Positions 1,059-33,999 of a DNA stretch of 33,999 nt are shown here, one piece after another (position 1 is the stretch's first letter; every line of letters starts with the position of its first letter). Origin of the DNA: Bacteroidia bacterium (GTDB taxonomy: Bacteria > Bacteroidota > Bacteroidia > J057 > JANWXU01); contig JANWXU010000034.1 in assembly GCA_025057395.1 (NCBI GenBank), forward strand, positions 1 through 33,999, written 5' to 3'. The notes beneath the pieces were generated by a model. That model made no database searches, was not told where the DNA came from, and saw only the letters and a list, made by a program, of their open reading frames with translations. The translations under genes were made by a program, and so were the position numbers.

Positions 1059-1135
1059 TGGTTCTTCATTTGAAATGGAACTAATTTTAATCAAATATTT
1101 TCTAATTCTAATATTCTTTGGAAGGGTAGAAAAAT

Positions 1136-1169
1136 AAAAAAGCGAACTCTCAAAAGAGTTCGCTTTTTT
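1136..1169 (-). terminator. Rho-independent terminator of the giant gene (symmetrical)
   Basis: A perfect 10-bp inverted repeat, AGCGAACTCT (1141-1150) and AGAGTTCGCT (1155-1164), encloses a 4-base loop. It is flanked by an A run on the left and a T run on the right, so it can terminate in both directions. It lies about 20 bases beyond the giant gene's stop codon (1188-1190, minus strand) and upstream of bioD, and should insulate bioD from the 16.7-kb transcript. Confidence 0.9.
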
Positions 1170-1187
1170 ATTCCAAACTAACTAGAA

Positions 1188-1440
1188 TTAATTCACTACA
1201 ATTCGTACATTCTGCTTAGTAGCACCGTCTTGAACTTGCAACAAATACACTCCTGGGCTTGCATTAGATAAATCAATCGGTACAATTAACTTACTACCAG
1301 AAGTGTGATCCACCTCTTGTTCAAATACGAGCTTACCTTGAACATCCCATATATGTAGAAGAACTCGTGGACTCGTAAATTCAGCTGCTTCTACTACAAA
1401 TACCCCATTGTTAGGATTAGGATATACTTGCAGCTCAATT
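1188..1440 (-). other. T9SS type A C-terminal sorting domain of the giant protein
   Basis: The last ~84 residues have the hallmarks of the Por/T9SS type A C-terminal domain: LQVYPNPNNGVFVV at the start, a central IWDVQGKLVFEQEV, the SPGVYLLQV segment, and a terminal basic strand ending KQNVRIVVN. In known T9SS substrates this domain directs passage across the outer membrane and is removed during attachment or release. No T9SS machinery genes are present in the window. Confidence 0.92.
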
Positions 1441-4400
1441 TCAGCTGCTTCTGTACCTTGCTTAGCGGGAAGTGCAAAGTTAACTATATTACTCCACTCG
1501 CTACGTGTGCCACTCGAAGCCGAACAAAGAGCACAATTAGTACGCATAACAACTCCATACTGTGAGCCTGGCATTAGGCCAGTTAGATTCGTAGTAGTAA
1601 CACCAAAGGGTACAAGTATACTGCGCCACGTTGAGGGGTCTTGAGTGGCAGGACCATAACTTAACACATAACATACTCCACTAGTAGTAGGAGCTTGCCA
1701 GCTCACCGTAGCACTTGTAGGAGTAATGTTGGAAACCCTTATAGCAGTAGGCGCTCCACAACTATTCTCCGTACTCGTTTGAATAGTAGTAGGAGTAGAC
1801 CACTGCGAAGTAATGCCTCCACTACAAACTGCTTTTACACTAAACTCGTAATTGGTAGCGGGGCTTAGATTACCAATTGTTACAGGTGAAGTTTGATTGC
1901 CTAGTTCGTTCCAGGTACTAGAACCTACCAACCGATAGCGCAAGTTATAACTTACTGCTCCAGGTATAGCATTCCAGCTTAAAGTCATCGAAGTAGAGGT
2001 AACCGCAGTAGTCGTTATTACAGGGGCAGCCAAAGGAGCAACTTCTACTGTAGTACTGGCTACACACTCTCCTCGTCTTGCCGATATAACATAAGTACCA
2101 GCCGCTAAGCCCCTAAATATACCCGTAGTATTATCAAAGGGTCCATTATTGATCGAATACAAATATTCGCCTTCTGTTCCACCACTTGCAACTACTACAA
2201 TCTCACCACCATTATGCATACAACTAACTGGTGAGTTTCTTTCTACTCCAATTCTAATCGGCGCATTGCAACCACTACTGGTTTGGTGCGTTCTGGGCAT
2301 TGACCAATCAGAAACATTTGATTCACTACATACACTTTGTATTCGAAATTCATAATTCGTACCTGGAGCCAATCCCCTTACTGTAGCCGAATTTAAAGGA
2401 ATACCGCTTATTACCGTCCAATCGGCATTAGAACCTGCCGGCCTATAGCTCAAGTTATAGCCTAGGGCACCTGGAACCGCATCCCAATTCACTGTTACCT
2501 GACTTTGGGAGGTAGCAGGATCCGTACTAAAGCCGGTAATAACAGGAGTACCCAAACTTGCAATACTTATTACTGCAGCTGCAATACAATTACCATCACT
2601 AACTGTAGCTACATATTCACCCGGGGCTAATCCGCTAAAAGTACCCGTTGTATTGGTAATTCCATTTAAGGAGTAACGATAATTACCTGTTCCACCGCTT
2701 GCCCTAAGTGTAACAATAGCATTCCCACCATTGCAACCAATACCACCCAAACGAATAACCTCAAGGCGTAAATCGCCCGTTACTACCACCGTAGCAATAC
2801 CCGAGGTAGAGCCACCTCGACAGCCTGTTGCATCCGTAACCCATAGTAAATTATAGTTCCACGTACCCACGCCTGGAGGTACTACCTCTAAAATATGAGG
2901 AGAAGCAGCAACTCCATTTACTATAATAGGAGTACTATTATTGACTGAATAAGCATAGCTAAATGGTGGAACTCCCTCTAAGGTTACTGTTAAGTTCACT
3001 GGCGAATTTCCACAATTATTAATTGTACCCCCGCTTAATACTGCAGTCGGCGCCTTACCTACTATTACTTTCGTAGAAGCAAACACCGAAGTACAACCAT
3101 TAACAACTGTAGCCACACTATAATCACCTGCAGCACTAGCGGTCACACTTCTTATGGTTGGATTAGGATCAGAAGTAGTAAACCCGTTTGGACCTATCCA
3201 TATGAACTCAATACCCTTCTGTGGATGGGTAGCTGTTAACTTTAAGGAAGCGCCTTCGCAAACCGGACTGCTATTTGCTACTAAAGGTGGCGTAGGACGA
3301 GGTTTTACATTTAGTAAGAAGTTGGCTCCTCGCACTTGGGCACTGCAATTATTAGCATCAATTACCCTATAGGTTTCAAAAAGTAGGCTGCTGTTAGCCT
3401 GTACTAGCGTATCATAAGTGTAGGGTGAAGGCGAATTAGCATCCCCTATTACTCTTGCTACTAGAGTACCATTCACATAATGTGCCCATGTCCATGGTCC
3501 TTTCCCTGTAAAGATGGCACTTAGCCTATAATTTTCACCCTCACAGATAGATGCTTCATTTCCGATAAGGGTAATTGTGGGTCTGGGGTGCACAGTAACC
3601 TCTAGTACTTCATTTATATCCCTACTACACCCTGTTGCGTCGGTAACCTTATCAAATTGATAAGTAGCCGTCTGACGAGGAATCCATGGTAGAGATATAG
3701 TTGCTGGCGAAACAGCATTTTCATCTCCTAGCGTTAGACTCCTTGAAATTCCATTTTCACGGTAAGCTACTTGCCATGGACCTTTACCACTCAATTCAAA
3801 TTCTAGCGGTAAAGATTCACCCTGACAAATACTTTGTGAAACAGTATTCAAAACTGCCTGTGGCAACGGATTTACTCTTACAAAAGCACTTAGTTTAGGA
3901 TCATTTATCGACCAATCACTTGTACAACTATGGTCAGTATTGGTAACCATAATCAGTTGTACAGTAGTACTTACTTGGAGAGGACCCGTATTAATAGTAA
4001 AGGTTCTTTCTCCTATCCCTGTAATTGGCTGCTGAATATTATTCCCTACTTGATAGATTAACTCCCAACGCTCCGTGGGCGAAATATCTTTCACCTTTAC
4101 GGTAAGTTCTGCACTCTTACCAGCACAAACGACCGGCGAACCTGTAATCTCAGCGTCTGGAGTACTATTTACCGTGACAGTAATAGCTCCTCTTGCATCG
4201 CCTTTGCACCCATTTGCGTCAGTTACATCCACCAGTGTATAAACCGTTGTTTCAGTAGGGGCAATAGGTAAGATATAGGGCGATGTATTTATAATCGCTA
4301 CGGAAGGCTGCAGATTTGCTAAGTATCGCACTGCCCAAGGTCCATTTCCTGTTGCTCGTAAGACGAGGAAAGATGAAGTTCCTCGACAAATCGAAAAATT

Positions 4401-7400
4401 AGTACTAACAAAACTAACACTTGGGTTATGCACTACTACGTTTACAGGTACTGCTACAGAAGGACAACCCTCTGCATTAATCGCTCGCACTTCATAAGTT
4501 CCTGCATTATTGGGTGCTGCTACAAAACTTGGATTTGCAACATTAGCAAAGAAGCCATTGGGACCCGTCCACTGGAAGGTGGTTCCTCGAACAGGATGAA
4601 TTGCTAATAATTTTACAGTATCTCCTACACAATAACCTGCAGGAATAGTACCTACACTTGGGGCTGAGGGTTGAGGACGAACACTCACACGAGTATATAT
4701 GGTAGGAGAAGGACAACCTGCTACCTCAATAGTTAAGCTATAAACCCCCGAATCTTGGAAAGTTAAATTAGGACGAAGAGGGTTTTGTTGGGTAGAAGCA
4801 AAGCCGTTAGGTCCTGTCCATAAGTAAGTTGCACCCGGAATAGAAGAGGCTTGCAATTGAAGGGGTGAGCCGAAGCAAGCGGGAGCGCGGAAACCTGCAG
4901 TTGGAGTAATAGGTCTTGGATTTATAACTGCCCTCGTTACCGCAGGTTGTGAGGTACAGCTACCAAGTGTAGCTATTACAGTATAAGTACCACTTTGAAG
5001 AGGACTTGCATTAAACAAGCTAGGATTCTGTTGCGAAGCTGTATAGCCTCCTGGACCAAACCACGTATAACTCGCTCCTTCTACAAAGGTAGCTGTTAAA
5101 TTGAGCGTCTGACCTTCACAGATAGGTCCATTATTACCAGCAAGTATATTTTGAGGCGCACGTGCCACAATAACGTTAGTTGTTGCCGTAGGAGTCACAC
5201 ATGCACCTATAAAAGCTGTCACACTATACGTACCGCTTGCAGAAGTAGTAGCATTTTGAATAAAAGGATTTTGTTCCGTAGAAGAAAATCCGTTAGGACC
5301 TACCCATTGATAAGTAGCCCCTGGAATGGGAGTAGCCGCTAAATTAAGGGTACTTCCTGCACAAACAGGACCATTATTTGTAGCATTTAACACTCCCCTT
5401 ATGGGCGTAATTTGTACTGTAACAGGTACAGCAGAAGCCCTACATTCACCAAAAGCTACAATAACACTATAAGTACCCGCATTCAAAGAAGAAACATTAG
5501 TAATGGTGGGGTTTTGGAGTACTGAGGTGAAGCCTGCTGGTCCACTCCAACTGTAGGTCGCCCCTGGCACGGAAACAGTTAATTGTAGAGTAGCTCCTTC
5601 ACAAAGCGGAGAATTAGAACCTGCTACCACATTCTGCGGCGTTGGATTAACTGTTACTCTCGTTGTAGCAATTGCCGAAGTACAACCATTAGCCACCGCT
5701 GTAACACTGTAAGTACCACTATTCAGGGTTGTAGTATTAGTGATGGTAGGGTTCTGCTCCGTAGAAGTAAACCCAGGACCTGACCAAGAATACGAAGCCC
5801 CTGGTACAAACGTAGTAGTTAAGTTTAATGGCTGACCAGCGCAGAGAGTAATATCACGTCCATTAGTTAGAACTGGTGTACGATTCACTACCACGTTCAC
5901 TGAAGCAACTGGAGTAGTACAACCATTTACTACGGTTATTAAATAGTAAATTCCTGCATCCACAAGACGTATACCTCTTCGTGTTACGGTACTACCTTGT
6001 GCGCTAAACCCATTAGGACCTTGCCATTGATAGGTAGCTCCTGCAATAGGTGTAGCTTGCAAACTCAAGTCTTGACCAGCACACAAAGGACTATTACTAA
6101 GAATTGCTGGCGAATTAGGTACTGGCCTTACAACGATTTCATAAGTAATTGGCGTAAGTAAGCTACAGCCATTCACAATAACATTTAAACTATAAACCCC
6201 CTGGTCTGCAACCGTAATATTATTACGAACCGGATTCTGAAGTGTTGAAGTAAAGTTATTGGGGCCTGTCCAAATGTAGCTCGCTTCACTTACCTCAGTA
6301 GCACTTAAGAGCAAATTTTGTCCACTACAAAGCTCAGGGCCGTTACTAGATACAATAGGTGGCGTAGGAGACGGATTGACAATTACCCTTGTCATCATAG
6401 GTGCGGAAGTACAGCCATTAACTACCGCACGTACACGATAATCGCCGCTCATGTATGTACCTGCCGCTAATTGTGGGTTATGCACTGGAGAAATTACCAC
6501 ATTGCTCTGCGGACCCTCCCATATGTAAGTAGCATTCGGAATTTGGGTAGCTGTAAGGCGTAATTCCGAATTCGCACAAACAGGACTATTACTACCTACT
6601 GATGCGATTACAGGTCGCTGAGTAACCACTACGTTAACTGTTACCGGCGCTGAAACGCAATTTCCTATCGAAACTACTAACGTATAAACCCCTGCATTTC
6701 GACTAGTTGCCGAAGATATTATTGGATTTTGCTCCTGCGAGGTATATCCTCCTGGTCCTCGCCATTGATAGGTAGCACCCGCATAAGTAGGTGCTGACAG
6801 CTGCAATGGGGAGCCTTCACAAACGGGAGAATTAGAGGTAGCTACCACAAAAGTAGGAGCAGGATCTACCGTTACCCTCACAGTACTCGGCTCAGAAGCG
6901 CAGTTACCAAAAGCTGCTACTACACTATAGGTGCCACCATTAGATACACTAACATTAGGAATAACCGGATTTTGCAGGGTAGAGTTAAACGAATTAGGAC
7001 CACTCCACCTGTAAGTAGCTCCGGGAATAAATTCAGCTGTAAGCTGTAATTCTGAACCTGCACAAACTGGAGTATTAGCCCTAGCTCTTGGCGGTTGTGG
7101 TGGAGCAGGATTGACCATCACATCTACTGTAGCTACAGAAGAAGTACATGACCCTATTCTTGCTCTTACACGATACGTACCGGATGCTAGGGTAGTAGCA
7201 TTATAAATAATAGGATTAGGCGAGAAGGCAGTAAAGTTGTTAGGACCCTCCCACATAAAACTTACCCCTGTTTGCAAAGATGCAGCATTTAATTCTAGTT
7301 GCTGCCCCGCGCAAATGGGCTGATTGCTTCCCACAGAAGCAATAATGGGTGTAGGATTAATTACTACATTTAGAGTTGCTTCAGAACTACAAGCTCCATT

Positions 7401-10400
7401 AGTAGCAACTAAGGTATATACACCCTGGTGCGCAGAAATAGTTGCATTAGGAATATCTAGTGTTCTTGGATTACCACTATTACCCGGATGAACTAAATTA
7501 GATGGTGGAACACGCCAGCTATAAGTTACTCCAGGAATAAAGGTACCTGTTAGGCTAAGCGTGTTTCCTTCGCAAATAGGCGCATTAGAAGATATTCGAG
7601 CAGGAGGCGGTGTCTGCTTTACTTCAACTGTTACGTTTGCAACTTCTGAAGTACAGTTCCCGTTTCTAACATAAACCGTGTAATTTCCTGCGTCTGTAGT
7701 TTGTACGTTTACACGCGTCAACTTATTAGCGGATGCAAAAAAGCCTGCAGGACCAGTCCACGTATAAGAACTACCACTGGGGTAATCAAAGGTATTAACT
7801 ATATCCACATTAAAAGATTGCCCTGAACAAGCAGTAACGAAAGAACTTGATAGTACAGGACGTGGAGGCACTGCGCGTATCACTACATTTACTTTTGCTG
7901 GCTCCGATTGACACCCAAACCCATCATTACTGATTGCTCTTACCTCATATTCTCCAGAATTTTCAACTCGGGCATTAGGAATAGAGGGATTTTGCAAGTT
8001 TGAAGTAAAGGGCGCAATGCTATTACTTGTCCATTCATAAGAAACATTTGGAATGGTAGAAGCACTTAAGTTTAGAGTTTGCCCCTCACACAAAGGACCA
8101 TTACTTCCTACTGAGGGTCTAGGCGGAGTTCTACCTATCTGTACCTCTGTTTGTGCCACTGGATAAGTACATCCATTAACTCGAACAGTAAGATAGTAAC
8201 GTCCTGCATTGGCCGTGGTAATATTATGAATTATTGGGTTTTGTAAAGTAGAACTAAAACCATTGGGACCTTCCCATAAATAGCTAGCACCATTAATTAG
8301 CTGAGTTCCTAGCGTTAAACTTTGACCGCTACATGCTTGGTTCGGATTCACATTGATAGTCGGGGGGAAGGGAGCTCCTGGATTAACTACAACTGCTATT
8401 GTACGAGCAGCCGAAGTACAGTTGCCTACAATGGCTTGCAAACTATATATTCCTCCTTCAAAGTCTTGAATTAATGGACGAGAAAAAGTACTTCCTGCGC
8501 CCGAAACACTAAAGCCGTCTGGAGCAGTCCATAGATAAGTAACACCTGGTACGCCTGGTGTAGTAAGAATCAATGTTTGCCCTTGGCAAATAGGGCTATT
8601 AGCTCCCCCCTCGGGCATTTCTGGAATAGGATTAATACGAACAAAAGTAGAAGCTACAGCAGAAGTACAACCATTTACTATGGCTACTGCACTATAAGCA
8701 CCTGCATCAGCAGCGGTTAAACCCAGCCGGATAAATCCTGGTCCTGAGCCTGTTGCCGTGAATCCATTAGGACCCGTCCAGAAGAACGTAGTATTCGGAG
8801 GATAGTTACCTGAAGCAGTTAGATTTAAAGTAGAACCTACACATTTTGGCGAATCATTACCTACTAGGGGAGGATTAGGAATCGGATTAATTACTACCAA
8901 AGAAGTAGTAGGTGGTGAAGTACATCCAGCAACGGTAGCAGTTACGCTATAATTACCTGCTGCTGAGGCTTGAACATTAGAACGTGTGAAAATAGGACCA
9001 CTTCCCTGGGCAATAAATCCATTAGGTCCTACAATACGATAAAAAGCTCCTGGTGCACCTGTTGCGGTGAAGGTAAGAACGTCCCCTATGCACTTGGGAC
9101 TATCATTGAATAGCTGTACGTTCGTCGGAATAGGATTAATAATTACGTTAGTAGTGGCTACTGCCGAGGTACATCCATTTTGTATAGCTTGAAGGCTATA
9201 TGTACCTCCCATATTCTGGGTCACTCCATTACGCCTAAATTCTGGACCCGGACCTTGTACATCAAAACCTAAAGGACCACGCCAACGATAAACAGCGCCT
9301 AGCACACCTGAAGCCGTAAGAGTAAGATTATCGCCTGCACAAATAGGTCCATTATTCTGCGCAAGTGGTAAGGGAGGGGTAGGATTAATCGTTACATCTA
9401 TAGTAAATACCTTAGAGGGACAATCTCCCAGTGTAGCGGTTACACTATATTGGCCCCGATTAGCCATTGTAACATTAGCGATTGTAACTCTTGTGTCTTG
9501 AGTTTGGGCAGCAAAATTATTAGGCCCTACCCATGAATATACTACTCCATTTTGTCCGTTATTAGCAGTAAGTGTTAGAGTTTCACCTACACACTTGGGT
9601 CCATCTTGTCCTAAGTTAATATCTGCAGGAATTGGTTTTACTACAGCAGAAACAAGGGTTCGAGTACTTGCACAGCCCGTAACAGTATTCTGTGCTTCTA
9701 CCCAAAATGCAGTTATTGTATTTACAAGCTGCGGGGAGGTTAATTCATATGGAGCAGTGTTATCACCTGCAAGTGGAACGCCTCCTACCTCTTGTGGATA
9801 CAAGTACATGGCATTCGCTGTATGGGGAGCTGTAGGCACTGCTGTAAAGGTAACCTGCCCTAGGCCACAACGACTCACTTCAGCTACAATAGGAGCACCA
9901 GGGCTAAGATTTACATTAGCAACTCCAGATACCGAAAGCGGACTAGCACATCCCGTTTGAGTATTAAATACATCAAAATAGAAGATAGTAGTAGTAGAAA
10001 CATTTACTGTGAGCCAGTAGGGGCTAGTATTATCTGTTGCAATAGGAGTAGAGCCGGGTACAGCAGTGGAGTATACTCGTATCACGTCTCCAGCAGGGCT
10101 GCCCATCATCACGGTAAAAGTAACTTCACCAGGTCCACAACGACTTACCGTAGCATCAGTTCCTAAAACCCTCGGTAACCCTGGAGAAGGATAAACTGTT
10201 GCAGTCACCAATACTCGATTACTACGGCAAACAGGCGAGGTGTTGGTTTTTACACTCTCTATGTAGTAACTTACTGTTACAGGTACGTTACTTACCGCAA
10301 TAGCAGGAGTAGCAAGTTGACTTGTGCCCGTCACTAAAGGAACTCCTCCTGTTTGGCTAGTATACATTCGAAATTCTGTTCCTGGAATAGTACCCATCGT

Positions 10401-13400
10401 TGCAGTAAATACTACTGGCCCAGAATTACAACGTGTGAGATTAGGTTGTAAGATATTGGGCTCAGAGGGAATATCATTGATAATAGCTGCAACCCCTGTA
10501 CGTGTAGCACTTCGACACCCCGTACTGGAGCTATAGCTTTCGAAATAGTAGGTTTGAGACTGAGACAAATTTTCTGTAGTGTAAGTATAAGGAGGCTGAT
10601 TGATAGTAGCAATCGGTATTCCACCCGTACTAATATCGTAAACATACATAATATCCCCCGCAGGAACACCCGTCAATTGAGCCGATAAGGTAACAACCCC
10701 CGGCCCGCAGCGAGCAACACTTTCGACATTCACAATAGGGGGTGCAGGACTGGGTCGTATAATTGCACGAATAGGGATTCTTTTACTTTTACAGCCTGCA
10801 CTAGTTACTGCTTCTACAAAGAAGGTGGTAGTCGTATTTATGCTAGGTGTACTTAGGATATTATTTACAGCGTCGGCAGTATCTATTGCTGTACCCCCCG
10901 AAGCTTGGGTATACATCAAAAACTGGGTGTTAGCATTAATGCTAAGATTTGAAAAGCTAACTACTCCCGGACCGCATCTTTCAGCTTCAGGGATATTAGG
11001 TTCCGCCGGAACTTCATTAATGATAGCCTGCGCTAGAGCTCTATCGCTACGACAACCCGTTCCAGTGTGTACTGCTTCTACATAGAAGTTGGAAGTAGTT
11101 TCTACGTCTATAGTTAGCTGATAGGGTGCCGTGTTATCTGTTACTAAAATAGGACCTCCACTTGGTTGACTATAAAGCCGCATTTGAGTACCAGCAGGAG
11201 TCTGCATTACAGGCGAGAAACGAATAGTACCTGGGCCACAACGTTCTACATTTTCTACCAGGGGTGTACCTGGTACAGGGAATATAGTTAAAATTACTGG
11301 GGTCCTAGTAGCACTTGTGCATCCCGTAACATTATTCACAGCTTCTATAAAGTAGGTAGAGGTAATTAATACCGGCGTTACTGTTGAGAGCAAATATGGC
11401 TCACTAGTAGCAGGACTGCCTATCAGGTTATTATTAGAATCATATAGTAGTATACTTTGACCTGCGGGTAAGCCCATAGTCGCAGTTATAGTCATTACTG
11501 CACTGCCACAGCGAGATTGGTTAGGTGCACTAGGTGGAGCGGGATTCAAGTTAACCTGCGCAACAGCTGGAAAACGTTCACTAACACAATTATTATCATC
11601 TACTGCCTCAATATAAAAAGTAGTAGGGAAGCCGATGGAAGGAGTGGTCAAATTAGAAGGATTAGTATTTCCTTCAGCAATAGGAGTTCCTCCCGAAGGG
11701 GTAGTATAAAGGCGCAAAACTTTTCCTTGCGGGGTGCCCATGCTAGCTACAAAAGTAACGGTTCCACTACCACATCTTGCAACAGGAGGGGCAAAAGGTG
11801 TGCCAGGTATAGGATTTACAGTTGCCGTAACTTGCAAACATTGACTTGTACATCCGGTAGCTGTATTTACAACCTGTAAGAAGAAGTTGGTAGTAGGATC
11901 ACTCACATTCGCAGAAAGACGATAGGGAGCAGAAACAGTACTATCCACCAGTGTTCCATTACAGTTTCCACTAAACATTCTTATCTTATTACCTTGCGGC
12001 GTTCCCATCGAAGCAAAGAAAGTTACTCTTCCATTTCCACAACGCTGTACATCTTGCGCATTTGGAGCAGCCGGACTTGGATGAATAGTAGCTACTACTT
12101 GGTTCCATTGACTAGCACAGCCTGTAGAGGTATTAAAGCTCTCAATGAAATAGGTAGTAGTAGTAGCAACTGAATTCAAAGTAAGCGTAAAATTAGGAGA
12201 AGTGCCTGTAGCCACAGGGGTAGCTGCGCCCAATTGAGTATATAAGCGTATTTCTGTGCCTGCAGGTGAGCCCATACTTGCTGTAAAGGTAACTATACCC
12301 GCATCACACCGGGACACATTAACAGCATTGGGTACTCCTGGTTCCTGTAGAATAACTGCCCTCGCCTGTACCCGATTAGTATTTACACACTGGGTTACTT
12401 GATTAAATGTCTCTAAAAAGAAAGTAGTAGTTGAATTTATTTGATTGGTAGTAATTGAATAAGGCTGCGGTGCAGGAGTACTTGCAATAATTTGCCCTCC
12501 TGAAGCAGTAGCATATAGCCGTAAAACAATATTTTGTGGGTCGGGGGGCGTACCTTGTAAAATAATACCCGTAAAAGTAACTACTCCTGCGCCGCACCTC
12601 TGAGCCTCGATATTGCCTATGAGATTAGTAGCCGGAGGCGGAATAGGATTATGAGTAGCCACTACTTGCCTACGCGTACTACTTGAGCATCCTGTGCTAG
12701 GATTGAAAGCGTCTATCCAGTAGGTAGTAGTAGAGGTGATAGCAGTTGGAGTCTCCAACTGATAGGGCGAGCTATTATCTACCGCAATAGGAGTATTCGA
12801 ATTGGATGTTTCAAATAAGCGTAACACTGGAGCACTAGGAAAACCCGGCGAAGGTAAAAATGTTACCACTCCATCTCCACACCGAGAAACATCTGAAGCA
12901 ACAGGCGTACCCGGAATAGGATGAATAGTTACTATCACCTGACCACTCACACTAGTACACTGAGTAGCAGTATTTATAGTCCTGGGATAAAAAGTAGTAG
13001 TAGTAGTAACATTGCCCGGCTGCAAGAAGAAGGGCGGATTATTAAATTCAGCAGCTGGGCCAAGGGGAACTCCGCCGCTAGGTAGGGTATACAGTTCTAT
13101 CCTATCTCCTCCCGGAGATCCAAAAGCTACAGTAAAAGTTACCGTGCCCGGTCCGCAGCGTACAGCACCATTGGAAGTAGGGGGAGCAGGTAGAGGATTA
13201 ATAGTAGCTACCACTGAAGTTCTTGGACTTACACAATTCTTTTCAGAAGTTACTTCTAACCAAAACGTAGTGGTTGCCTGAATATTTCCTGTACCTAACC
13301 AATAATCAGGTCCCGTGTTATCACTGCTTATTTCCGTAGTAGCAGCTTGGCTAGCATATAATTTTATCACCTGCCCTGGTGGAGTTCCCATGAAAGCTGT

Positions 13401-16400
13401 GAAAGTAACTGAGCCTGCTCCGCACCTTTGTACGTTTGCTGCTGTAGGACTGCCAGGTACAGGATTCACTACTACCACCCCCTGCGAACGGCTTGCGCTA
13501 GTACAGCTTATAGAAGTAGATTTATCCACTAACTCAAAGAAATAAGTAGTGGTAGTATTAGGAGAGGGAGTAGGAGTAAAATCATAAGGACTGATGTTAT
13601 CTGTAGCAATGGGCACACCACCTGTAGCAGTGTTATATACTAAAACTTCTGCTTGTTGCAAAGTACCTACATTCGCAAAAAAGGTAACGGCATTACCTGC
13701 ACAAATTTCTTTTGTAGACTCCACAAGCGTAGGAGCAGGTGGAAGTGGGAAAATAGTCAATTTTACCTGAGCGCGCGGACTTTCACAGTTAGTGGCGGTG
13801 TTGAAGGAAGATATGTAATAAATAGTAGAAGTAGTTACGTTCGGAACCGTTATCTGATAAGGAGAAGATACCTCTGTAATAAAGTTTCCTCCCGCAGGCG
13901 CACTATATAACCTTACTCTATTTCCTGGATTAGTTCCATTTACATCTGCAGTAAAAGTAATTGGACCGTTGCCACACCTTGCAAGAATTGAATTTGTTGA
14001 AACAGAAGGCAAGTTGGGAGGACTATTTACCGTCACGACTACTGCCGTTCTATTAGAAGCACAACCATTTGAAAAATTAAATGCCTCTAAATAAAAAGTA
14101 GTGGTCACGTTTACAGCCGGTGTTACGAGCTCATAGGGCACACTATTATCCGTAGCAATAGGATTTCCCCCCGAAGAAACACTATAAAGCCGCATCTGAG
14201 ATCCAGGGGGGGCTCCCATTTGGGCAACAATCGTTGCAGCTTGCTCACCACAAACACTAACAGGACTTGCAACAGGCGCTCCCGGATTAGGAAAAACGGT
14301 AAGCACAACTTCAGCTCTTTCACCTACACAACCTCCAGCAACACCCTCTAAATAATAAGTAGTAGTAGTGCTAGGAAGTACAGATGGGGTCAACAAAAAT
14401 GCTCCCGTAGCAGTAGCTAGCGGTGTTCCTCCCGAAGGAACATCATAGAGGCGAATTTCCGAACTTGGTGGTACTCCACTAGAAGCAGTGAAAGTAAGCG
14501 GGGCGATAGAGCTAGCACATCTCGAGATATTCGCAGCGCCCGGTTTCCCCGGAACAGGATTAATCTGAGCAATAATCGGTGTACGACTTGTTGAAGTACA
14601 GTTGGTAGAGGTTTCCACACTTTCAACAAAGTAAGTAGTAGTAGTACTAATTGCGGGAGACGTCCAAGTAGTACCACTAACCGTAGCAATAGGAGTTGCC
14701 GTTGTAGTTACTGTATATATTTGTAGTTGGTTTCCTGAAGGGGAAGCACCTAGAGTAATAGTAAAATCTACAGCGCCAGCCCCACAGCGTTGTGCAGTAG
14801 TAGTCTGGGGTGGGTTAGGGTTAGGGTTAATGGTAACAGGAATAGCAGTTCGAAGCTGACTAGTACAACCCGTCGTAGTATTAACAACTTCTGCGTAAAG
14901 AGTAGAAGAAGTGGCAACATTTGATAAGTTAATGCTGCTTATTCCGGAAGCAATACTAGGAATTGGGGGCGCTGGCGCCGGAGGATTAGAAGCAACTGTG
15001 TATAATAGTACCAAATTCCCGGGTATAGTACCCATGCTAATAGGAGATATTGTAACTGGTCCACTTCCGCACCTAGAAATAGGATTAGGAGGCGCTATTG
15101 GTGCACTAGGATTGGGATTTATTGTAAGCACTACTTGGCTACGAGTAGAACTTGTACATGATGGTGAGGGTGCTGGATTATTTATAACTGTCGCTGCATA
15201 GTAGGTAACAATATTAGGCGAACTTCCTACAGTCAAAGTAGGAGTAGTAAAAGTGTAAGGTGAATTAGTGATAGTCGCAATAGGCACTCCGCCTACAGGA
15301 ACATTATAGAATAGAACCGATAAATTAGGCACTGCCGTGACATTAGCCGTTATTGTGAAACTCCCGTCTCCACACCTGCTTTGATTAGACATAACAGGTG
15401 GCTGCGGTAAACTTAATATTCGAGCAACTACGCCGTGCCTGCCTACTGAAGAGCATTGCGTCGTTGTATTAATTACATCCAGATAGAATGTAGTCGTTGT
15501 GGTTACGGTTGTAGAAAGGGGAGTAGGGGTCGTGGCTATTGCTGTTCCACCGCTAGGCATTGTAAATAAACGAATAGCCTCACCTGGCCCGGGTGTATTC
15601 ACAGTAAAGCTAACAGAATTAACTGAGGCCACACACTGAATAACAGTATCTGGTAGCCATGTAGGGGTAGGATTAGGATTGATAGTTACAGTCACACTAG
15701 GCCGATTATTGTTATCGCTCGTGCAACCACTTGGCGTAACCACTTCTAGGTAGTAAGTGGTAGTAGTATTAGGAGAAGGATTAGGGGTAAAAGTATAGGG
15801 TGGTGCAGAAGCTGTACTTAGGGGTGTACCGCCCGAAGATACAGTATAAAATCGAATTGAACTTCCTGCTGGAAAAGGAGAGCCCGGATTAGCTTGCACG
15901 GTAATACTTTGCCCCTGGCACGCAGTTACCGGGATTCCAGAAGGATTACCAGGAATAGGATTAATTGTTGCCACAACTGCTTTTCTTGTAGCACTTGAGC
16001 ACTGAGTATTCGTATTGTAGTAACCTAGATAAAAAGTAGTGGTTACACTAATAGGGTTAGTAGTGGGGGCAATCTGGCTAGTTACAGAAGTTCCCACATC
16101 TGTAGTAACACTTACCACTGAAGAAGTATAGAGCCTCAGCTCCAATCCTGTTGGCGGAGCCACCGTAGCCGTAAAAGTGATAGTTGCGGGAGAACTTGCA
16201 TTTCCACAGGCCTGCACATCTGGAGCATTAGGCGTTGGCGGGTTAGGATTTATTTTTATGGTGATAGGTGTGTTTGTCGCACTTGAACATCCTGTTACCA
16301 CATTAAAAGTTTGAAGCATAAAGGTTGTAGTGGTATTAACGCTAGGTGTGACTAACTCGTGCGGCCCACCTACCGGAGTAACTGCAATAGGAGCAGGACC

Positions 16401-17873
16401 TGGCGGCGAAGAAAACAGCCTAACTATATTACCGCTTGTTCCTGGCGTAGCAGTAATTGTCGCCGAACCTGGGCCGCACCTTGCAATTGTATCTGGGTTA
16501 ATACCAAATGGAGCAGCTGGCAAAGTAAAAGTAGGAGGAGCAGGTATAGGGTTTACTTTCAAAACAGTATACTTGCGAGATGCGCTTACACAATTCGTAG
16601 GTGCCGCCCCTATAGTTTCCGAAAAATATGTAGTAGTGGTAGTAACATTCGGAAAACTAAAGGTACCACTTGACCCTGTAATAGTAGCAACAGGGGTTCC
16701 ACCCGTAAGTACATCATAGAGAAGTATTTGCGAGCTTCCGCCTTGAGCACTTACTGTAAAAGACATGGGTCCTGGTCCACATCTATATACCGTATCTGGA
16801 GCCAGCGGAGGGTTGGGTAGTGATACAATATTTGCTACCACAGCTGTATGGGGACTTAAACATCCTGCCGAGGGGGCAGCACTTCTTATATAGAAGGTAG
16901 TTGTTTGGGTAACATTAGGCACAGTTAGTAGGTAAGGAGCAGAATTAGCTGAAGCTATGGGAGGATCTGATAGAGTAACTATTTGTTGATCATATAGCCG
17001 AATTTCTGTTCCTGCTTGAGAGCCCATCGAGGCAGTAAAAGTTACGTCACCCGGCCCGCAACGGGTAACAGCTGGCGCCGAAGGAGCATTGGGTATAGCC
17101 CTCAAACTATTAATCCAGGTAGTATTAGCGCCTCCATTAGGCTCACCTGGCGTAGCATTACTCGGATTAGTTTCCTTGGTCCAGTTGCTAGCATTGCTAA
17201 TGCCTGCAGCACTATTGCCCGTGTAATGCACTGAATGGGCATTCGTATTAGGACGGACAGTGGCACCTGTAAAAGAAGCATTGTTGCCTTGGTCCCAATC
17301 ATGAACTATAGTACCACCGTTATTAAATAAAACGGGGTTATATGTTACCACTGTAGTAGAATTATCAAAGTAGGAGTTAGAGCCCCAATTAAACGAGGGC
17401 TCAAATAATGTAGAGTTATTACTTCCCACCACAATTTTATAGTTGCAATCTGTTTTTGAGAGATCATCTGGAACTTGATTAGCTCCATTTCCAAATTCAT
17501 TGCTTTGACAGGAAAAAAGCGCATCAATGTTATAAACTACAATTATAGTACCCGGCGGAATATTATTCCAGAAAGGATCGTTTTTAAACTCCAACAAAAC
17601 AGCACCCCCCGGGCTATCTCTTAGTCGCCACCCTCCTAGGTTAACAGGTCCAGGCCCAACAACTAGTAATTCAATCCATTCCGTAGCTTCTGTTAATGAA
17701 CTACACAATGGTCCTGCCAACGGTACTCCCTGCCCCCATTCATTAATAATTACAGATTGGCTACGAGCAGTATAAAACGAAAAGAACATTAACAAGCTAA
17801 AAAACAGTGCACAAGCTTGCCCCTTTACTTTGACTAAAAGTAGATTTTTCATATTATGTTTCAACTTCTTCAT
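1188..17873 (-). CDS. Giant secreted multi-domain Ig-repeat surface protein with T9SS sorting domain (5561 aa)
   Basis: This is one uninterrupted frame. In order it shows: a basic N-terminus and hydrophobic signal peptide (about 1-39, ending near ARSQS); a lamin-tail-like domain (about 40-255, opening with VIINEWG, later WIELLV and GGWRLRD); 27 'A' repeats (about 262-2752); 21 'B' repeats (about 2753-4481); four 'C' domains (about 4482-4855) with GNGPW/GKGPW and VTDANGC motifs; a 22nd B repeat (Cys 4872); a C-like domain; a SprB-like domain (about 5047-5110); Fn3; a second SprB-like domain; Fn3; Fn3 (to about 5470); and a C-terminal T9SS type A domain. The likely role is as a cell-surface or released adhesin/stalk exported by Sec and then T9SS, which is inference from architecture. 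No enzymatic domain is evident. An alternative start is ATG 17850-17852, seven codons in. Divergent from rpsO. Confidence 0.93.
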   Translation of the reverse strand: MKKLKHNMKNLLLVKVKGQACALFFSLLMFFSFYTARSQSVIINEWGQGVPLAGPLCSSLTEATEWIELLVVGPGPVNLGGWRLRDSPGGAVLLEFKNDPFWNNIPPGTIIVVYNIDALFSCQSNEFGNGANQVPDDLSKTDCNYKIVVGSNNSTLFEPSFNWGSNSYFDNSTTVVTYNPVLFNNGGTIVHDWDQGNNASFTGATVRPNTNAHSVHYTGNSAAGISNASNWTKETNPSNATPGEPNGGANTTWINSLRAIPNAPSAPAVTRCGPGDVTFTASMGSQAGTEIRLYDQQIVTLSDPPIASANSAPYLLTVPNVTQTTTFYIRSAAPSAGCLSPHTAVVANIVSLPNPPLAPDTVYRCGPGPMSFTVSAQGGSSQILLYDVLTGGTPVATITGSSGTFSFPNVTTTTTYFSETIGAAPTNCVSASRKYTVLKVNPIPAPPTFTLPAAPFGINPDTIARCGPGSATITATPGTSGNIVRLFSSPPGPAPIAVTPVGGPHELVTPSVNTTTTFMLQTFNVVTGCSSATNTPITIKINPNPPTPNAPDVQACGNASSPATITFTATVAPPTGLELRLYTSSVVSVTTDVGTSVTSQIAPTTNPISVTTTFYLGYYNTNTQCSSATRKAVVATINPIPGNPSGIPVTACQGQSITVQANPGSPFPAGSSIRFYTVSSGGTPLSTASAPPYTFTPNPSPNTTTTYYLEVVTPSGCTSDNNNRPSVTVTINPNPTPTWLPDTVIQCVASVNSVSFTVNTPGPGEAIRLFTMPSGGTAIATTPTPLSTTVTTTTTFYLDVINTTTQCSSVGRHGVVARILSLPQPPVMSNQSRCGDGSFTITANVTAVPNLSVLFYNVPVGGVPIATITNSPYTFTTPTLTVGSSPNIVTYYAATVINNPAPSPSCTSSTRSQVVLTINPNPSAPIAPPNPISRCGSGPVTISPISMGTIPGNLVLLYTVASNPPAPAPPIPSIASGISSINLSNVATSSTLYAEVVNTTTGCTSQLRTAIPVTINPNPNPPQTTTAQRCGAGAVDFTITLGASPSGNQLQIYTVTTTATPIATVSGTTWTSPAISTTTTYFVESVETSTNCTSTSRTPIIAQINPVPGKPGAANISRCASSIAPLTFTASSGVPPSSEIRLYDVPSGGTPLATATGAFLLTPSVLPSTTTTYYLEGVAGGCVGERAEVVLTVFPNPGAPVASPVSVCGEQAATIVAQMGAPPGSQMRLYSVSSGGNPIATDNSVPYELVTPAVNVTTTFYLEAFNFSNGCASNRTAVVVTVNSPPNLPSVSTNSILARCGNGPITFTADVNGTNPGNRVRLYSAPAGGNFITEVSSPYQITVPNVTTSTIYYISSFNTATNCESPRAQVKLTIFPLPPAPTLVESTKEICAGNAVTFFANVGTLQQAEVLVYNTATGGVPIATDNISPYDFTPTPSPNTTTTYFFELVDKSTSISCTSASRSQGVVVVNPVPGSPTAANVQRCGAGSVTFTAFMGTPPGQVIKLYASQAATTEISSDNTGPDYWLGTGNIQATTTFWLEVTSEKNCVSPRTSVVATINPLPAPPTSNGAVRCGPGTVTFTVAFGSPGGDRIELYTLPSGGVPLGPAAEFNNPPFFLQPGNVTTTTTFYPRTINTATQCTSVSGQVIVTIHPIPGTPVASDVSRCGDGVVTFLPSPGFPSAPVLRLFETSNSNTPIAVDNSSPYQLETPTAITSTTTYWIDAFNPSTGCSSSTRRQVVATHNPIPPPATNLIGNIEAQRCGAGVVTFTGIILQGTPPDPQNIVLRLYATASGGQIIASTPAPQPYSITTNQINSTTTFFLETFNQVTQCVNTNRVQARAVILQEPGVPNAVNVSRCDAGIVTFTASMGSPAGTEIRLYTQLGAATPVATGTSPNFTLTLNSVATTTTYFIESFNTSTGCASQWNQVVATIHPSPAAPNAQDVQRCGNGRVTFFASMGTPQGNKIRMFSGNCNGTLVDSTVSAPYRLSANVSDPTTNFFLQVVNTATGCTSQCLQVTATVNPIPGTPFAPPVARCGSGTVTFVASMGTPQGKVLRLYTTPSGGTPIAEGNTNPSNLTTPSIGFPTTFYIEAVDDNNCVSERFPAVAQVNLNPAPPSAPNQSRCGSAVMTITATMGLPAGQSILLYDSNNNLIGSPATSEPYLLSTVTPVLITSTYFIEAVNNVTGCTSATRTPVILTIFPVPGTPLVENVERCGPGTIRFSPVMQTPAGTQMRLYSQPSGGPILVTDNTAPYQLTIDVETTSNFYVEAVHTGTGCRSDRALAQAIINEVPAEPNIPEAERCGPGVVSFSNLSINANTQFLMYTQASGGTAIDTADAVNNILSTPSINTTTTFFVEAVTSAGCKSKRIPIRAIIRPSPAPPIVNVESVARCGPGVVTLSAQLTGVPAGDIMYVYDISTGGIPIATINQPPYTYTTENLSQSQTYYFESYSSSTGCRSATRTGVAAIINDIPSEPNILQPNLTRCNSGPVVFTATMGTIPGTEFRMYTSQTGGVPLVTGTSQLATPAIAVSNVPVTVSYYIESVKTNTSPVCRSNRVLVTATVYPSPGLPRVLGTDATVSRCGPGEVTFTVMMGSPAGDVIRVYSTAVPGSTPIATDNTSPYWLTVNVSTTTIFYFDVFNTQTGCASPLSVSGVANVNLSPGAPIVAEVSRCGLGQVTFTAVPTAPHTANAMYLYPQEVGGVPLAGDNTAPYELTSPQLVNTITAFWVEAQNTVTGCASTRTLVSAVVKPIPADINLGQDGPKCVGETLTLTANNGQNGVVYSWVGPNNFAAQTQDTRVTIANVTMANRGQYSVTATLGDCPSKVFTIDVTINPTPPLPLAQNNGPICAGDNLTLTASGVLGAVYRWRGPLGFDVQGPGPEFRRNGVTQNMGGTYSLQAIQNGCTSAVATTNVIINPIPTNVQLFNDSPKCIGDVLTFTATGAPGAFYRIVGPNGFIAQGSGPIFTRSNVQASAAGNYSVTATVAGCTSPPTTSLVVINPIPNPPLVGNDSPKCVGSTLNLTASGNYPPNTTFFWTGPNGFTATGSGPGFIRLGLTAADAGAYSAVAIVNGCTSAVASTFVRINPIPEMPEGGANSPICQGQTLILTTPGVPGVTYLWTAPDGFSVSGAGSTFSRPLIQDFEGGIYSLQAIVGNCTSAARTIAVVVNPGAPFPPTINVNPNQACSGQSLTLGTQLINGASYLWEGPNGFSSTLQNPIIHNITTANAGRYYLTVRVNGCTYPVAQTEVQIGRTPPRPSVGSNGPLCEGQTLNLSASTIPNVSYEWTSNSIAPFTSNLQNPSIPNARVENSGEYEVRAISNDGFGCQSEPAKVNVVIRAVPPRPVLSSSFVTACSGQSFNVDIVNTFDYPSGSSYTWTGPAGFFASANKLTRVNVQTTDAGNYTVYVRNGNCTSEVANVTVEVKQTPPPARISSNAPICEGNTLSLTGTFIPGVTYSWRVPPSNLVHPGNSGNPRTLDIPNATISAHQGVYTLVATNGACSSEATLNVVINPTPIIASVGSNQPICAGQQLELNAASLQTGVSFMWEGPNNFTAFSPNPIIYNATTLASGTYRVRARIGSCTSSVATVDVMVNPAPPQPPRARANTPVCAGSELQLTAEFIPGATYRWSGPNSFNSTLQNPVIPNVSVSNGGTYSVVAAFGNCASEPSTVRVTVDPAPTFVVATSNSPVCEGSPLQLSAPTYAGATYQWRGPGGYTSQEQNPIISSATSRNAGVYTLVVSIGNCVSAPVTVNVVVTQRPVIASVGSNSPVCANSELRLTATQIPNATYIWEGPQSNVVISPVHNPQLAAGTYMSGDYRVRAVVNGCTSAPMMTRVIVNPSPTPPIVSSNGPELCSGQNLLLSATEVSEASYIWTGPNNFTSTLQNPVRNNITVADQGVYSLNVIVNGCSLLTPITYEIVVRPVPNSPAILSNSPLCAGQDLSLQATPIAGATYQWQGPNGFSAQGSTVTRRGIRLVDAGIYYLITVVNGCTTPVASVNVVVNRTPVLTNGRDITLCAGQPLNLTTTFVPGASYSWSGPGFTSTEQNPTITNTTTLNSGTYSVTAVANGCTSAIATTRVTVNPTPQNVVAGSNSPLCEGATLQLTVSVPGATYSWSGPAGFTSVLQNPTITNVSSLNAGTYSVIVAFGECRASAVPVTVQITPIRGVLNATNNGPVCAGSTLNLAATPIPGATYQWVGPNGFSSTEQNPFIQNATTSASGTYSVTAFIGACVTPTATTNVIVARAPQNILAGNNGPICEGQTLNLTATFVEGASYTWFGPGGYTASQQNPSLFNASPLQSGTYTVIATLGSCTSQPAVTRAVINPRPITPTAGFRAPACFGSPLQLQASSIPGATYLWTGPNGFASTQQNPLRPNLTFQDSGVYSLTIEVAGCPSPTIYTRVSVRPQPSAPSVGTIPAGYCVGDTVKLLAIHPVRGTTFQWTGPNGFFANVANPSFVAAPNNAGTYEVRAINAEGCPSVAVPVNVVVHNPSVSFVSTNFSICRGTSSFLVLRATGNGPWAVRYLANLQPSVAIINTSPYILPIAPTETTVYTLVDVTDANGCKGDARGAITVTVNSTPDAEITGSPVVCAGKSAELTVKVKDISPTERWELIYQVGNNIQQPITGIGERTFTINTGPLQVSTTVQLIMVTNTDHSCTSDWSINDPKLSAFVRVNPLPQAVLNTVSQSICQGESLPLEFELSGKGPWQVAYRENGISRSLTLGDENAVSPATISLPWIPRQTATYQFDKVTDATGCSRDINEVLEVTVHPRPTITLIGNEASICEGENYRLSAIFTGKGPWTWAHYVNGTLVARVIGDANSPSPYTYDTLVQANSSLLFETYRVIDANNCSAQVRGANFLLNVKPRPTPPLVANSSPVCEGASLKLTATHPQKGIEFIWIGPNGFTTSDPNPTIRSVTASAAGDYSVATVVNGCTSVFASTKVIVGKAPTAVLSGGTINNCGNSPVNLTVTLEGVPPFSYAYSVNNSTPIIVNGVAASPHILEVVPPGVGTWNYNLLWVTDATGCRGGSTSGIATVVVTGDLRLEVIRLGGIGCNGGNAIVTLRASGGTGNYRYSLNGITNTTGTFSGLAPGEYVATVSDGNCIAAAVISIASLGTPVITGFSTDPATSQSQVTVNWDAVPGALGYNLSYRPAGSNADWTVISGIPLNSATVRGLAPGTNYEFRIQSVCSESNVSDWSMPRTHQTSSGCNAPIRIGVERNSPVSCMHNGGEIVVVASGGTEGEYLYSINNGPFDNTTGIFRGLAAGTYVISARRGECVASTTVEVAPLAAPVITTTAVTSTSMTLSWNAIPGAVSYNLRYRLVGSSTWNELGNQTSPVTIGNLSPATNYEFSVKAVCSGGITSQWSTPTTIQTSTENSCGAPTAIRVSNITPTSATVSWQAPTTSGVCYVLSYGPATQDPSTWRSILVPFGVTTTNLTGLMPGSQYGVVMRTNCALCSASSGTRSEWSNIVNFALPAKQGTEAAEIELQVYPNPNNGVFVVEAAEFTSPRVLLHIWDVQGKLVFEQEVDHTSGSKLIVPIDLSNASPGVYLLQVQDGATKQNVRIVVN
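4431..9617 (-). repeat. Array of 21 B-type Ig/PKD-like repeats in the giant protein
   Basis: Twenty-one tandem coding repeats average about 247 bp (82 residues). Each carries an early cysteine in a context like SPxCxGxxLxLTA, then a YxWxGPxGF core, usually QNP, then GxYxV, a late Cys in a GCTS-like motif, and a VNPxP linker. They are diverged rather than identical: the third repeat has YRIVGPNGF without the tryptophan, and the seventh and ninth modify the GPxGF core. A 22nd copy lies apart near 3258, beyond the C domains. The family resembles Ig-like/PKD-like domains common in Bacteroidota exported proteins. Boundaries are by eye. Confidence 0.85.
9618..17090 (-). repeat. Array of 27 A-type Ig-like repeats in the giant protein
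   Basis: Twenty-seven tandem coding repeats average about 277 bp (92 residues). The shared plan is an RCGxGxVTFTA opening, then IRLY, then a GGxPI turn, a TTTTFYxE strand, a GCxS-like motif and a NPxP linker. This resembles the Ig-like domain often found next to CHU_C/T9SS C-terminal domains in Bacteroidota (family recalled, not searched). Repeats 4-6 have the most divergent openings (ACGNASS, ACQGQ, QCVASV). All 27 retain an early and a late cysteine. Boundaries are by eye. Confidence 0.85.
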
Positions 17874-17903: not shown

Positions 17904-17934
17904 CAAATCTAATCAAATATACTATGCAACAAAA
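17904..17934 (-). promoter_or_regulatory. Candidate promoter of the giant gene
   Basis: On the minus strand TAGATTTG (17904-17911) matches the Bacteroidota -7 consensus TAnnTTTG. It is preceded at an 18-base spacing by TTTTG (17930-17934) as a possible -33 element. A second match, TATATTTG (17914-17921), lies 10 bases upstream but lacks a well-placed -33. Which one is used cannot be decided from sequence. Confidence 0.4.
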
Positions 17935-31522: not shown

Positions 31523-31596
31523 CTAGTAACCAATTTTGAGTATTCTCCTATTAAAGTGTTTTTTGAATCTTCAAAATCTCTTTGCATATGCTTCAT

Positions 31597-33999
31597 ATGT
31601 TTAAAAATCTACGTAAACAATATCAATTATGCTTAGTTGCTCTTGGGGCTATGTTTTTTTATCTAGCCTCACTTTCAAATCTCTGTGCTGCTGTTTATTA
31701 TGTAAATACAAATACGGGGTTTGATAGCAACTTGCCGGGCCAAGGAAGTTCGCCTGCTACTCCCTGGAAAACTATTAGCTATGCCATTGCTTTAGCTGCG
31801 GCAGGAGATACTATAGAAGTAGCTGCGGGTACTTATATCGAAAATTTGGTATTCAATAAAAACCTCGTTCTGTTCGGACCCAACCGTAACATCTCTCCTA
31901 ATGGAGGAGCAAGAGTAGCAGAAGCTATTTTACAACCCCCTGCGCCTTTTATTCCTCCTGTAAGCATCGGTATAGAAAATGCTGATGCCCACATTGAGAT
32001 AACGGGCTTCACATTAGTAGGTACTGGCGACTACTTGCTTTGGGCTAACGGAAGTACCCCTAACTCTCCTAGTGGCAGCGTTAAGTTTAGCAAAAATATT
32101 GTAACAGGTACAGGAAGAATAAACGATGGTATTCTCTACTGTAATAATATTTTAGAAGTCAATGTTCAGGATAATCGATTTGCTAATCTAGTTGCAAGTG
32201 GAACTTCTCATGCTCTACAAATAATTGCAGCGAAAATACTTTCTGTAAAAAGTAATACTTTTAATAATACTAACTATGCTGCTATCTACGCCATCAATGT
32301 AGATAGTGCCATAATAGAAAGAAACGTAATTAGCACTACCACTGCTGCAGGAATTATTATCCTACATGGCAATGATGTCCAGGACCAATATACCCTCTTT
32401 ATCCGCGAAAATACCATTACTAATGCTGGTTCTATGGTACATGGAGGCATTAGTTTAACTATAGGCAACGGAACTAAACAAGTTACTATATCTCACAATC
32501 GCATTCAAAATTGCTTTTATGGAGTACATATTCAAAATGGTTCTCAAGATATTACAAATAAAGTAGCAGTTACTTATAATTGGTTCAGTGCCAATAGCGG
32601 TGCCGCTATCAACCATGCGGGCATAGGAGTATTGGAAGCAGCAGCCAATTGGTATGGCAGCCCTAATGGCCCTACTTCACCCTTCAATTTTGGAGTTAGT
32701 GGTACTCAGCGCATTCTTACAAGTAATCAAGACACCCTAGCTCGGTTTGCCCCTTGGCTTGGTACGGGAACTGATGCTGACCCTATTACACCAGGATTTC
32801 AAATACCAACAAGTGCAACTCTTATAATTCGTTCCAGTTGGCCTCAAAGCGGTAGCGGATTATTGCAAAGGAGCAATACTTTTGCTCGATCTGGAGATGT
32901 TCTAGAATTCCGAGATTCGGTCTATATAAACGAAGATTTGCACATTGATAAGTCTCTTAGCCTTAAAGCAGGAGGTAATTTTACCCCACGTTGGAGAAAT
33001 CTTAGCGTAGGAGGAATTAATAATATTCCTGAAGTAAGTTTATTAAGTGATTTTCAAGTAAATAACGTAAATTTAATCCAAGGGCAGGGTGGAAAGATTA
33101 ATACTAACGCTTACACCTTAAGGGTACGCCAAAATTACGCAGAAGCCCCTACGGAAGGTAAAGCTGTTTTTGGAACTACGGTTACTAGCCGCACAGTAAA
33201 CGCATTTGAAAATAATTTTGGTAATATCAGTATAACTTTTTTGGAAACCAATACCCCTACTACAAGCAACATCCAAGTTACTCGCTTTTCTGGTACCAAT
33301 GCAGTAGTAGTGATTAACGGACAAAATAGTATTGCTCAACGCTGGCGCCTAGAAGGCAATATACCGCAAGGACGTTCTATACGCCTGAGCTGGCCAGCTA
33401 TTAATGATAATGGCGTGGATCTTAACTCTGCCCGCCTCTGGTTTCGTGCTTTAGGTTCAAATACCTGGCAACCTCTAGGACGTTTGATTACAGACACTAT
33501 TGGTAACCCTAGAACTTTACAAATTACGCTCACACAAGCAGGAGAATTTACCGTGGCGCCCTTTCGTTGTAGACTTACAGTCGATTTAGGACCTGATAGC
33601 CGAGTTTGTACCAATAATCCTTATACTCTAAAACCTTCAATTACAGGGGGAACCCCTCCTTACAATTTTCAATGGAGCCCGGCAGCTAATTTGAACAGTG
33701 CTACTATTGAGCAGCCTATCTTTCAAAGCAACTCTTTAGGATCTCGTACGCTTGGAGTTACGGTTACTGATGCTATTGGATGTCAAGCAACTGATACCAT
33801 CCGCCTTACTCTAATACAGAGCCCAACGGCCTTTGCAGGACGAGATACGATGATTTGTCGAGGTCAAATACTTCGCCTAAATGCAAGAGCATCAGGAGGG
33901 GGAGCCGCTTCCTTCAATGACTATCGTTTTACCTGGCGTTCAGATACTATCCTTATTGCTTTTAATAATCCTACTCCTTCGATTTCGCAAAATAGAAGC
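31597..33999 (+). CDS. Large exported beta-helix plus Ig/PKD-like repeat protein, 3' end cut by window edge
   Basis: An open frame of about 800 codons runs off the right edge without a stop. With the ATG at 31597 it begins MFKNLRKQYQ, followed by a hydrophobic signal peptide ending near LCAA; an in-frame ATG at 31588 would add three residues. The mature N-terminus (YYVNTNTGFDS, then GDTIEVAAGTYIENL) and the repeated short strands rich in N, I and V (such as ITGFTLVGTG, VQDNRF, IERNVIS, ISHNRIQNC) match right-handed parallel beta-helix proteins. ANWYGSPNGPTSP closes that region. A second domain (about 480-660) follows, then Ig/PKD-like modules starting VDLGPDSRVC and AGRDTMICRG. A T9SS sorting domain may lie beyond the edge. 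Surface or secreted location is likely; binding or enzymatic function is unknown. Confidence 0.85.
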   Translation, partial: MFKNLRKQYQLCLVALGAMFFYLASLSNLCAAVYYVNTNTGFDSNLPGQGSSPATPWKTISYAIALAAAGDTIEVAAGTYIENLVFNKNLVLFGPNRNISPNGGARVAEAILQPPAPFIPPVSIGIENADAHIEITGFTLVGTGDYLLWANGSTPNSPSGSVKFSKNIVTGTGRINDGILYCNNILEVNVQDNRFANLVASGTSHALQIIAAKILSVKSNTFNNTNYAAIYAINVDSAIIERNVISTTTAAGIIILHGNDVQDQYTLFIRENTITNAGSMVHGGISLTIGNGTKQVTISHNRIQNCFYGVHIQNGSQDITNKVAVTYNWFSANSGAAINHAGIGVLEAAANWYGSPNGPTSPFNFGVSGTQRILTSNQDTLARFAPWLGTGTDADPITPGFQIPTSATLIIRSSWPQSGSGLLQRSNTFARSGDVLEFRDSVYINEDLHIDKSLSLKAGGNFTPRWRNLSVGGINNIPEVSLLSDFQVNNVNLIQGQGGKINTNAYTLRVRQNYAEAPTEGKAVFGTTVTSRTVNAFENNFGNISITFLETNTPTTSNIQVTRFSGTNAVVVINGQNSIAQRWRLEGNIPQGRSIRLSWPAINDNGVDLNSARLWFRALGSNTWQPLGRLITDTIGNPRTLQITLTQAGEFTVAPFRCRLTVDLGPDSRVCTNNPYTLKPSITGGTPPYNFQWSPAANLNSATIEQPIFQSNSLGSRTLGVTVTDAIGCQATDTIRLTLIQSPTAFAGRDTMICRGQILRLNARASGGGAASFNDYRFTWRSDTILIAFNNPTPSISQNRS

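Follow-up and report, generated by a model that had tools for sequence, protein, structure and literature searches.

Taken singly, the giant exported protein described here belongs to a broad class that is already known, the giant Ig-array proteins of the T9SS. What is new, and more interesting than the single protein, is the large repertoire to which it belongs, in which heads are swapped over stalks built of two blocks of Ig-like repeats, A and B. One genome, that of a Bacteroidia bacterium, devotes about 18% of its DNA to such proteins, which comprise some 2,000 divergent Ig domains. The stretch of this genome that we analyzed (33,999 nucleotides, here called the window) is coextensive with its contig, C172. 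For the protein encoded in it, we consider it probable that it is a head-on-stalk surface protein, secreted by the T9SS, whose Ig stalk presents an LTD-like head for contact or adhesion.

Gene and flanking signals

The gene is a single unbroken frame on the minus strand (1188..17873), which encodes 5,561 residues, leads from ATG to stop (1188–1190) without an internal stop codon and has an even GC content by codon position over its entire length. This bears out the intact 16.7-kb frame described in an earlier note on this DNA. Residues 1 to about 38 (17760..17873) read as a signal peptide, with a basic start, a hydrophobic core and an ARSQS end, and from this reading we infer the cleavage site. 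About 30 nt upstream of the ATG, on the same strand, lies a promoter-like TTTG-N18-TAGATTTG (17904..17933) of the Bacteroidetes type, which is a pattern match and not proof of a promoter. Directly past the stop codon, a hairpin with a T-rich tract (1134..1171, minus strand; fold −25.4 kcal/mol, z −6.7) is a probable intrinsic terminator; a scan for the terminator consensus did not list it. With a promoter-like site and a terminator of its own, the gene would seem to form a single-gene unit. Its neighbors are bioD on one side and, on the other, the housekeeping run rpsO-pnp-rimP-nusA-infB (names assigned by eye). At 80 loci anchored on PNPase in other Bacteroidota, we found no A/B protein near pnp where the flank was present.

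A second large T9SS-type protein starts within the window (31582..33999, plus strand), its gene being cut by the contig end. By eye, it has a β-helix-like N-terminus, resembling the β-helix heads of loci L094–L100, followed by Ig-like domains.

Domain architecture

All domains of the giant protein are given here with their positions on the minus strand. The head (residues 39–260, 17094..17759) had been described as lamin-tail-like, a reading that stands in weakened form: PF00932 does match, with an E-value of 1.6e-5, but the 25.7 bits fall below the gathering cut-off of 34.3, and the head can be called LTD-like at most. It is followed by the A array with 27 Ig_7-type repeats (residues 261–2749, 9627..17093) and the B array with 21 Ig-like repeats (residues 2750–4485, 4419..9626). 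Repeat segmentation returned the same counts as the earlier note, giving 48 repeats that are all whole and tile without gaps, and located the clean switch between the families, previously placed near 9618, between 9627 and 9626. The A repeats have a mean length of 92 residues and a mean pairwise identity of 35%, the B repeats 83 residues and 37%. In Pfam searches, the A repeats proved to be Ig_7 domains (PF19081), with E-values down to 1e-134 and scores above the cut-off (246 and 438 bits, over 10 and 17 stretches), and the B repeats matched the Ig_2, Ig_7 and PKD models. AF2 models of one repeat pair from each array (A18-A19, pLDDT 96.9; B16-B17, pLDDT 93.2) were confident and matched Ig/Fn3-type folds, with GhpA filament fragments as top matches for the B pair. 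If each bead spans about 4 nm, as in known Ig folds, the contour of all 48 beads would reach up to about 190 nm; this is pure arithmetic, as is the rod of roughly 200 nm proposed in the earlier note.

Beyond the arrays lie C-type Ig-like repeats (residues 4486–4860, 3294..4418) with weak Ig-like Pfam matches, and among these C-type modules stands a lone additional B-type repeat (residues 4861–4942, 3048..3293), which the B profile detects with 80 bits. The claim that the A and B families never interleave therefore holds inside the two arrays, but not for this repeat. A C-like repeat, two SprB-like repeats and three Fn3 domains follow (residues 4943–5482, 1428..3047): the fn3 model scored 110 bits over three stretches, whereas the SprB repeat model (PF13573) reached 27.4 bits, at a cut-off of 28, over two stretches that are both weak. 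The protein ends in a type A T9SS sorting domain (Por_Secre_tail; residues 5483–5561, 1191..1427), which scored above the cut-off with PF18962 (44.3 bits, cut-off 27) and TIGR04183 (39 bits, cut-off 23). The type B domain (TIGR04131/PF13585) was absent, type A alone matching at E-values up to 0.1. The C-terminal modules had been read correctly from the sequence, as had the general character of the protein, a T9SS substrate for export whose Ig-like domains stand in two separate arrays. As its C-terminus is a sorting domain, a polymorphic toxin with a C-terminal toxin is ruled out.

Secretion

Type A substrates of the T9SS are processed by PorU and then attached to A-LPS or released, and type B substrates, for example SprB, depend on SprF (PMC10202324). 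The genome encodes SprA (SprA_N, 421 bits) and the PorU sortase (T9SS_sortase, 1225 bits), together with at least 150 type A sorting domains. Genes of the PorP/SprF family are found on contigs C170, C111, C174, C189 and C123, and none was found on C172, the contig of the giant gene; a GldJ-like frame is also present in the genome, with a GldJ match below the cut-off. Judged by its signal peptide (read by eye), its sorting domain and the presence of SprA and PorU, the giant protein appears to be a type A substrate. Since such substrates can also go into the medium, it may, but need not, be retained at the surface.

Divergence of the repeats

Within the giant gene, no two repeats are more than 54% identical, neighboring repeats are not more similar to each other than to those far apart, and no long tandem repeats were found in the DNA of the window. 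A collapse of the repeats during short-read assembly is therefore unlikely; the low identity of the repeats and the absence of long DNA repeats led us to reject assembly collapse and recent tandem expansion alike. Across the genome, with one region that was present twice in the set left out of the identities, identity did not exceed 63% between any two of 902 A repeats or 75% between any two of 869 B repeats, and in each family two cysteines are 99–100% conserved. The nearest neighbor of a repeat was located in the same protein in 8% (A) and 11% (B) of cases, only somewhat above the 3% expected, and the best matches of the giant protein's repeats were scattered across many paralogs; on these grounds we reject a recent whole-gene duplication among the giants. 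Judged from these comparisons, the A and B arrays are old and diverged, not fresh copies. For titin and fibronectin, the idea has been that adjacent beads must differ in order to avoid misfolding, and the absence of near-identical repeats here fits this idea.

A repertoire of A/B proteins

The Ig_7 model PF19081 matched dozens of frames in the same genome. Scoring with profiles built from the giant protein's own A and B repeats, and counting frames with at least three repeats, we obtained about 75 open frames that together comprise about 250,000 residues (219,147 + 32,385, minus a small overlap of loci L111 and L112) and about 750 kb of the 4.08-Mb assembly. There are fewer genes than frames, as several frames reach contig ends. 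Loci L162, L163 and L167 are entire small contigs of A-only (or A and B) repeats; since the assembly is broken within genes of this kind, it is uncertain how many of the giants are complete.

An A block that runs straight into a B block, each with four or more repeats, occurs in at least 22 frames, and the opposite order, B before A, in about five. Outside this genome, the A-then-B order recurs in another genome of the same order, in a smaller protein with 18 A and then 7 B repeats (L158). The earlier note knew of no protein with this layout, which these frames and the homology of the B array to GhpA (see below) contradict; searches of the literature on giant T9SS Ig proteins, which covered few subscription papers, turned up no account of it. 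Ig_7 itself was present in 281 of the 295 genomes sampled in the class.

The heads of the paralogs comprise subtilase, trypsin-like with a propeller, DUF7948 with an SBBP propeller, IgGFc-binding, DUF2341, ALK/LTK-type glycine-rich and LTD-like types, a family of six β-helix-like heads of ~990 residues, one head with a weak matrixin match, and several without any family. Four paralogous LTD-like heads occur in the genome, with 37–49% identity; such a head is found on a 1,484-residue frame with 9 A repeats (C176) and on a 729-residue frame with 4 A repeats (C60). In relatives, 60 of which were drawn, all from outside the genus and family, this head type occurs mostly in frames of about 410–460 residues. 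Since the same head is found on stalks of 9 A, of 4 A and of 27 A plus 21 B repeats, and other heads are found on the same kinds of stalk, heads and stalks are separate modules. With different heads on the same stalk, the role of such giants becomes testable.

Three further loci deserve mention. At L115 (C88:1-16000; 3956-5737 and 5683-15999), taken together with L173, at least 24 B repeats precede 26 A repeats, and the A array carries on in another frame, possibly through a frameshift, an assembly error or a broken gene. On the same contig, L113 and L114 (C88:18300-43000) contain a 7,635-residue frame of GGTFSGPGV-like repeats without A/B matches. Locus L100 (C111:65000-80300) encodes a giant of 5,024 residues with 39 A repeats, which follows immediately downstream of a PorP/SprF-family gene and a GldJ-like frame (C111:62457-64764) although its own sorting domain is of type A.

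Relationship to GhpA

GhpA, the grappling hook protein A of Aureispira, forms heptameric, T9SS-secreted hooks that grip prey flagella ahead of T6SS killing (PMC11205867). Cryo-EM structures are available for GhpA of Aureispira sp. CCB-QB1 (PDB 9flp, 9fls, 9flu, 9flv, 9flw, 9flx, 9fly, 9g8b; Lien et al. 2024), and GhpA fragments took the first eight places among the PDB matches of the B-pair model, with 32–40% identity. At the sequence level, the B array matched with 1402 bits across GhpA residues 1105–5049. The C-terminal part scored 486 bits, its best stretch being the C-type repeats with the lone B-type repeat after them. By these scores, homology between the B array and the GhpA filament region is clear, and the B stalks of the repertoire can be modeled on the solved GhpA structures. 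The A array yielded nothing against GhpA with phmmer and weak matches by profile only, and is a remote relative.

Residues 1–353 of the giant protein had no match in the GhpA chains, and two N-terminal fragments of GhpA had none in the giant frames of the genome. Further, the subtilase-headed paralog L103 matched GhpA with 1425 bits, no worse than the giant protein. The likeness to GhpA is thus common to the paralogs and does not amount to orthology, which the equal score of L103 and the unmatched N-terminal region rule out. The stalk belongs to the GhpA filament kind, which does not make the protein itself a GhpA.

Proposed function

As a head-on-stalk surface protein, the giant would be exported by Sec, carried across the outer membrane by the type IX translocon SprA, and processed by PorU, which would remove the type A sorting domain and either link the protein to surface lipopolysaccharide or release it. 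The 48 disulfide-capable Ig-like beads would thereafter make up a long stalk and keep the LTD-like head at a good distance from the cell, where it might bind another surface, be it of a cell, a polymer or prey. The genome builds many such proteins, in which the A and B stalks are interchangeable and carry various heads. Binding might also take place at the array itself, with the head playing only an incidental part. Of the roles proposed in the earlier note, which were adhesion, gliding and cell-cell contact, surface contact is the most plausible; gliding is disfavored by the type A domain and the lack of a PorP/SprF gene on the contig.

That the B array is an oligomeric filament and the protein a grappling hook of the GhpA kind, used for prey capture in ixotrophic predation, seems rather unlikely to us. 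The scores of the B array and the C-terminal part against GhpA, the eight top matches of the B model and the precedent of T9SS-secreted heptamers that attach to prey flagella (PMC11205867) all point this way, but the score of the subtilase-headed paralog shows the GhpA match to be common to B arrays as a family, the N-terminal 353 residues are unmatched, and the 27-repeat A array resembles GhpA weakly and by profile only. The T6SS model PF17541 (TssC) had no match in this genome, and the control genomes were silent as well. We give somewhat more weight, while still regarding it as doubtful, to a broader proposal in which dozens of GhpA-related arms, with swappable enzymatic or binding heads on A/B Ig stalks of varying length, form a modular repertoire and jointly seize or process prey or partner cells from a distance; if true, the known grappling hook would have a many-headed counterpart here.

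Improbable in our view is an SprB-like gliding-motility adhesin that is moved over the cell by the gliding machinery. The length is near that of SprB, which has 6,497 residues (PMC9870892), and there are SprB-like repeats; the genome carries SprA, PorP/SprF-family genes and the GldJ-like frame, and RemA is a precedent for a type A substrate acting as a gliding adhesin. Against this, the sorting domain is of type A and not of type B, C172 is without a PorP/SprF gene, the GldJ match lies below the cut-off, and the SprB repeats are two weak matches. We likewise see little likelihood in a structural coat or matrix, formed by many giant Ig proteins as an S-layer-like or filament mat without specific head function: the sheer number of paralogs, which fill about 18% of the assembly, and the T9SS-secreted S-layers of Tannerella speak for it, yet both the divergence of the repeats (A pairs ≤63%, B pairs ≤75% identity) and the distinct enzymatic and binding heads are ill-suited to a uniform lattice. 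We therefore retain the head-on-stalk surface protein as the probable reading.

Comparison with the closest known systems

Like SprB of Flavobacterium johnsoniae, the protein is a giant exported T9SS surface protein, by our reading, and it has SprB-like repeats near its C-terminus. It differs from SprB in its sorting domain, which is of type A where that of SprB is of type B, and in having Ig_7/GhpA-type arrays and no adjoining sprF; the type A domain and the lack of an sprF neighbor rule out orthology.

The A repeats belong to the same family as the Ig_7 proteins of Bacteroidota (PF19081, 'Ig-like domain CHU_C associated'), but the copy number of Ig_7 is far higher in this genome than elsewhere, with 1,825 first-look candidates in a loose count, compared to at most 321 in any of the other 294 genomes of the class.

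GhpA, with 5,898 residues, is likewise a T9SS giant, and its solved filament fragments are long B-type Ig arrays. In contrast to GhpA, the giant protein shows no detectable counterpart of the first 1,100 residues at the N-terminus, adds a 27-repeat A array and an LTD-like head, and comes from a genome that holds a large set of its paralogs.
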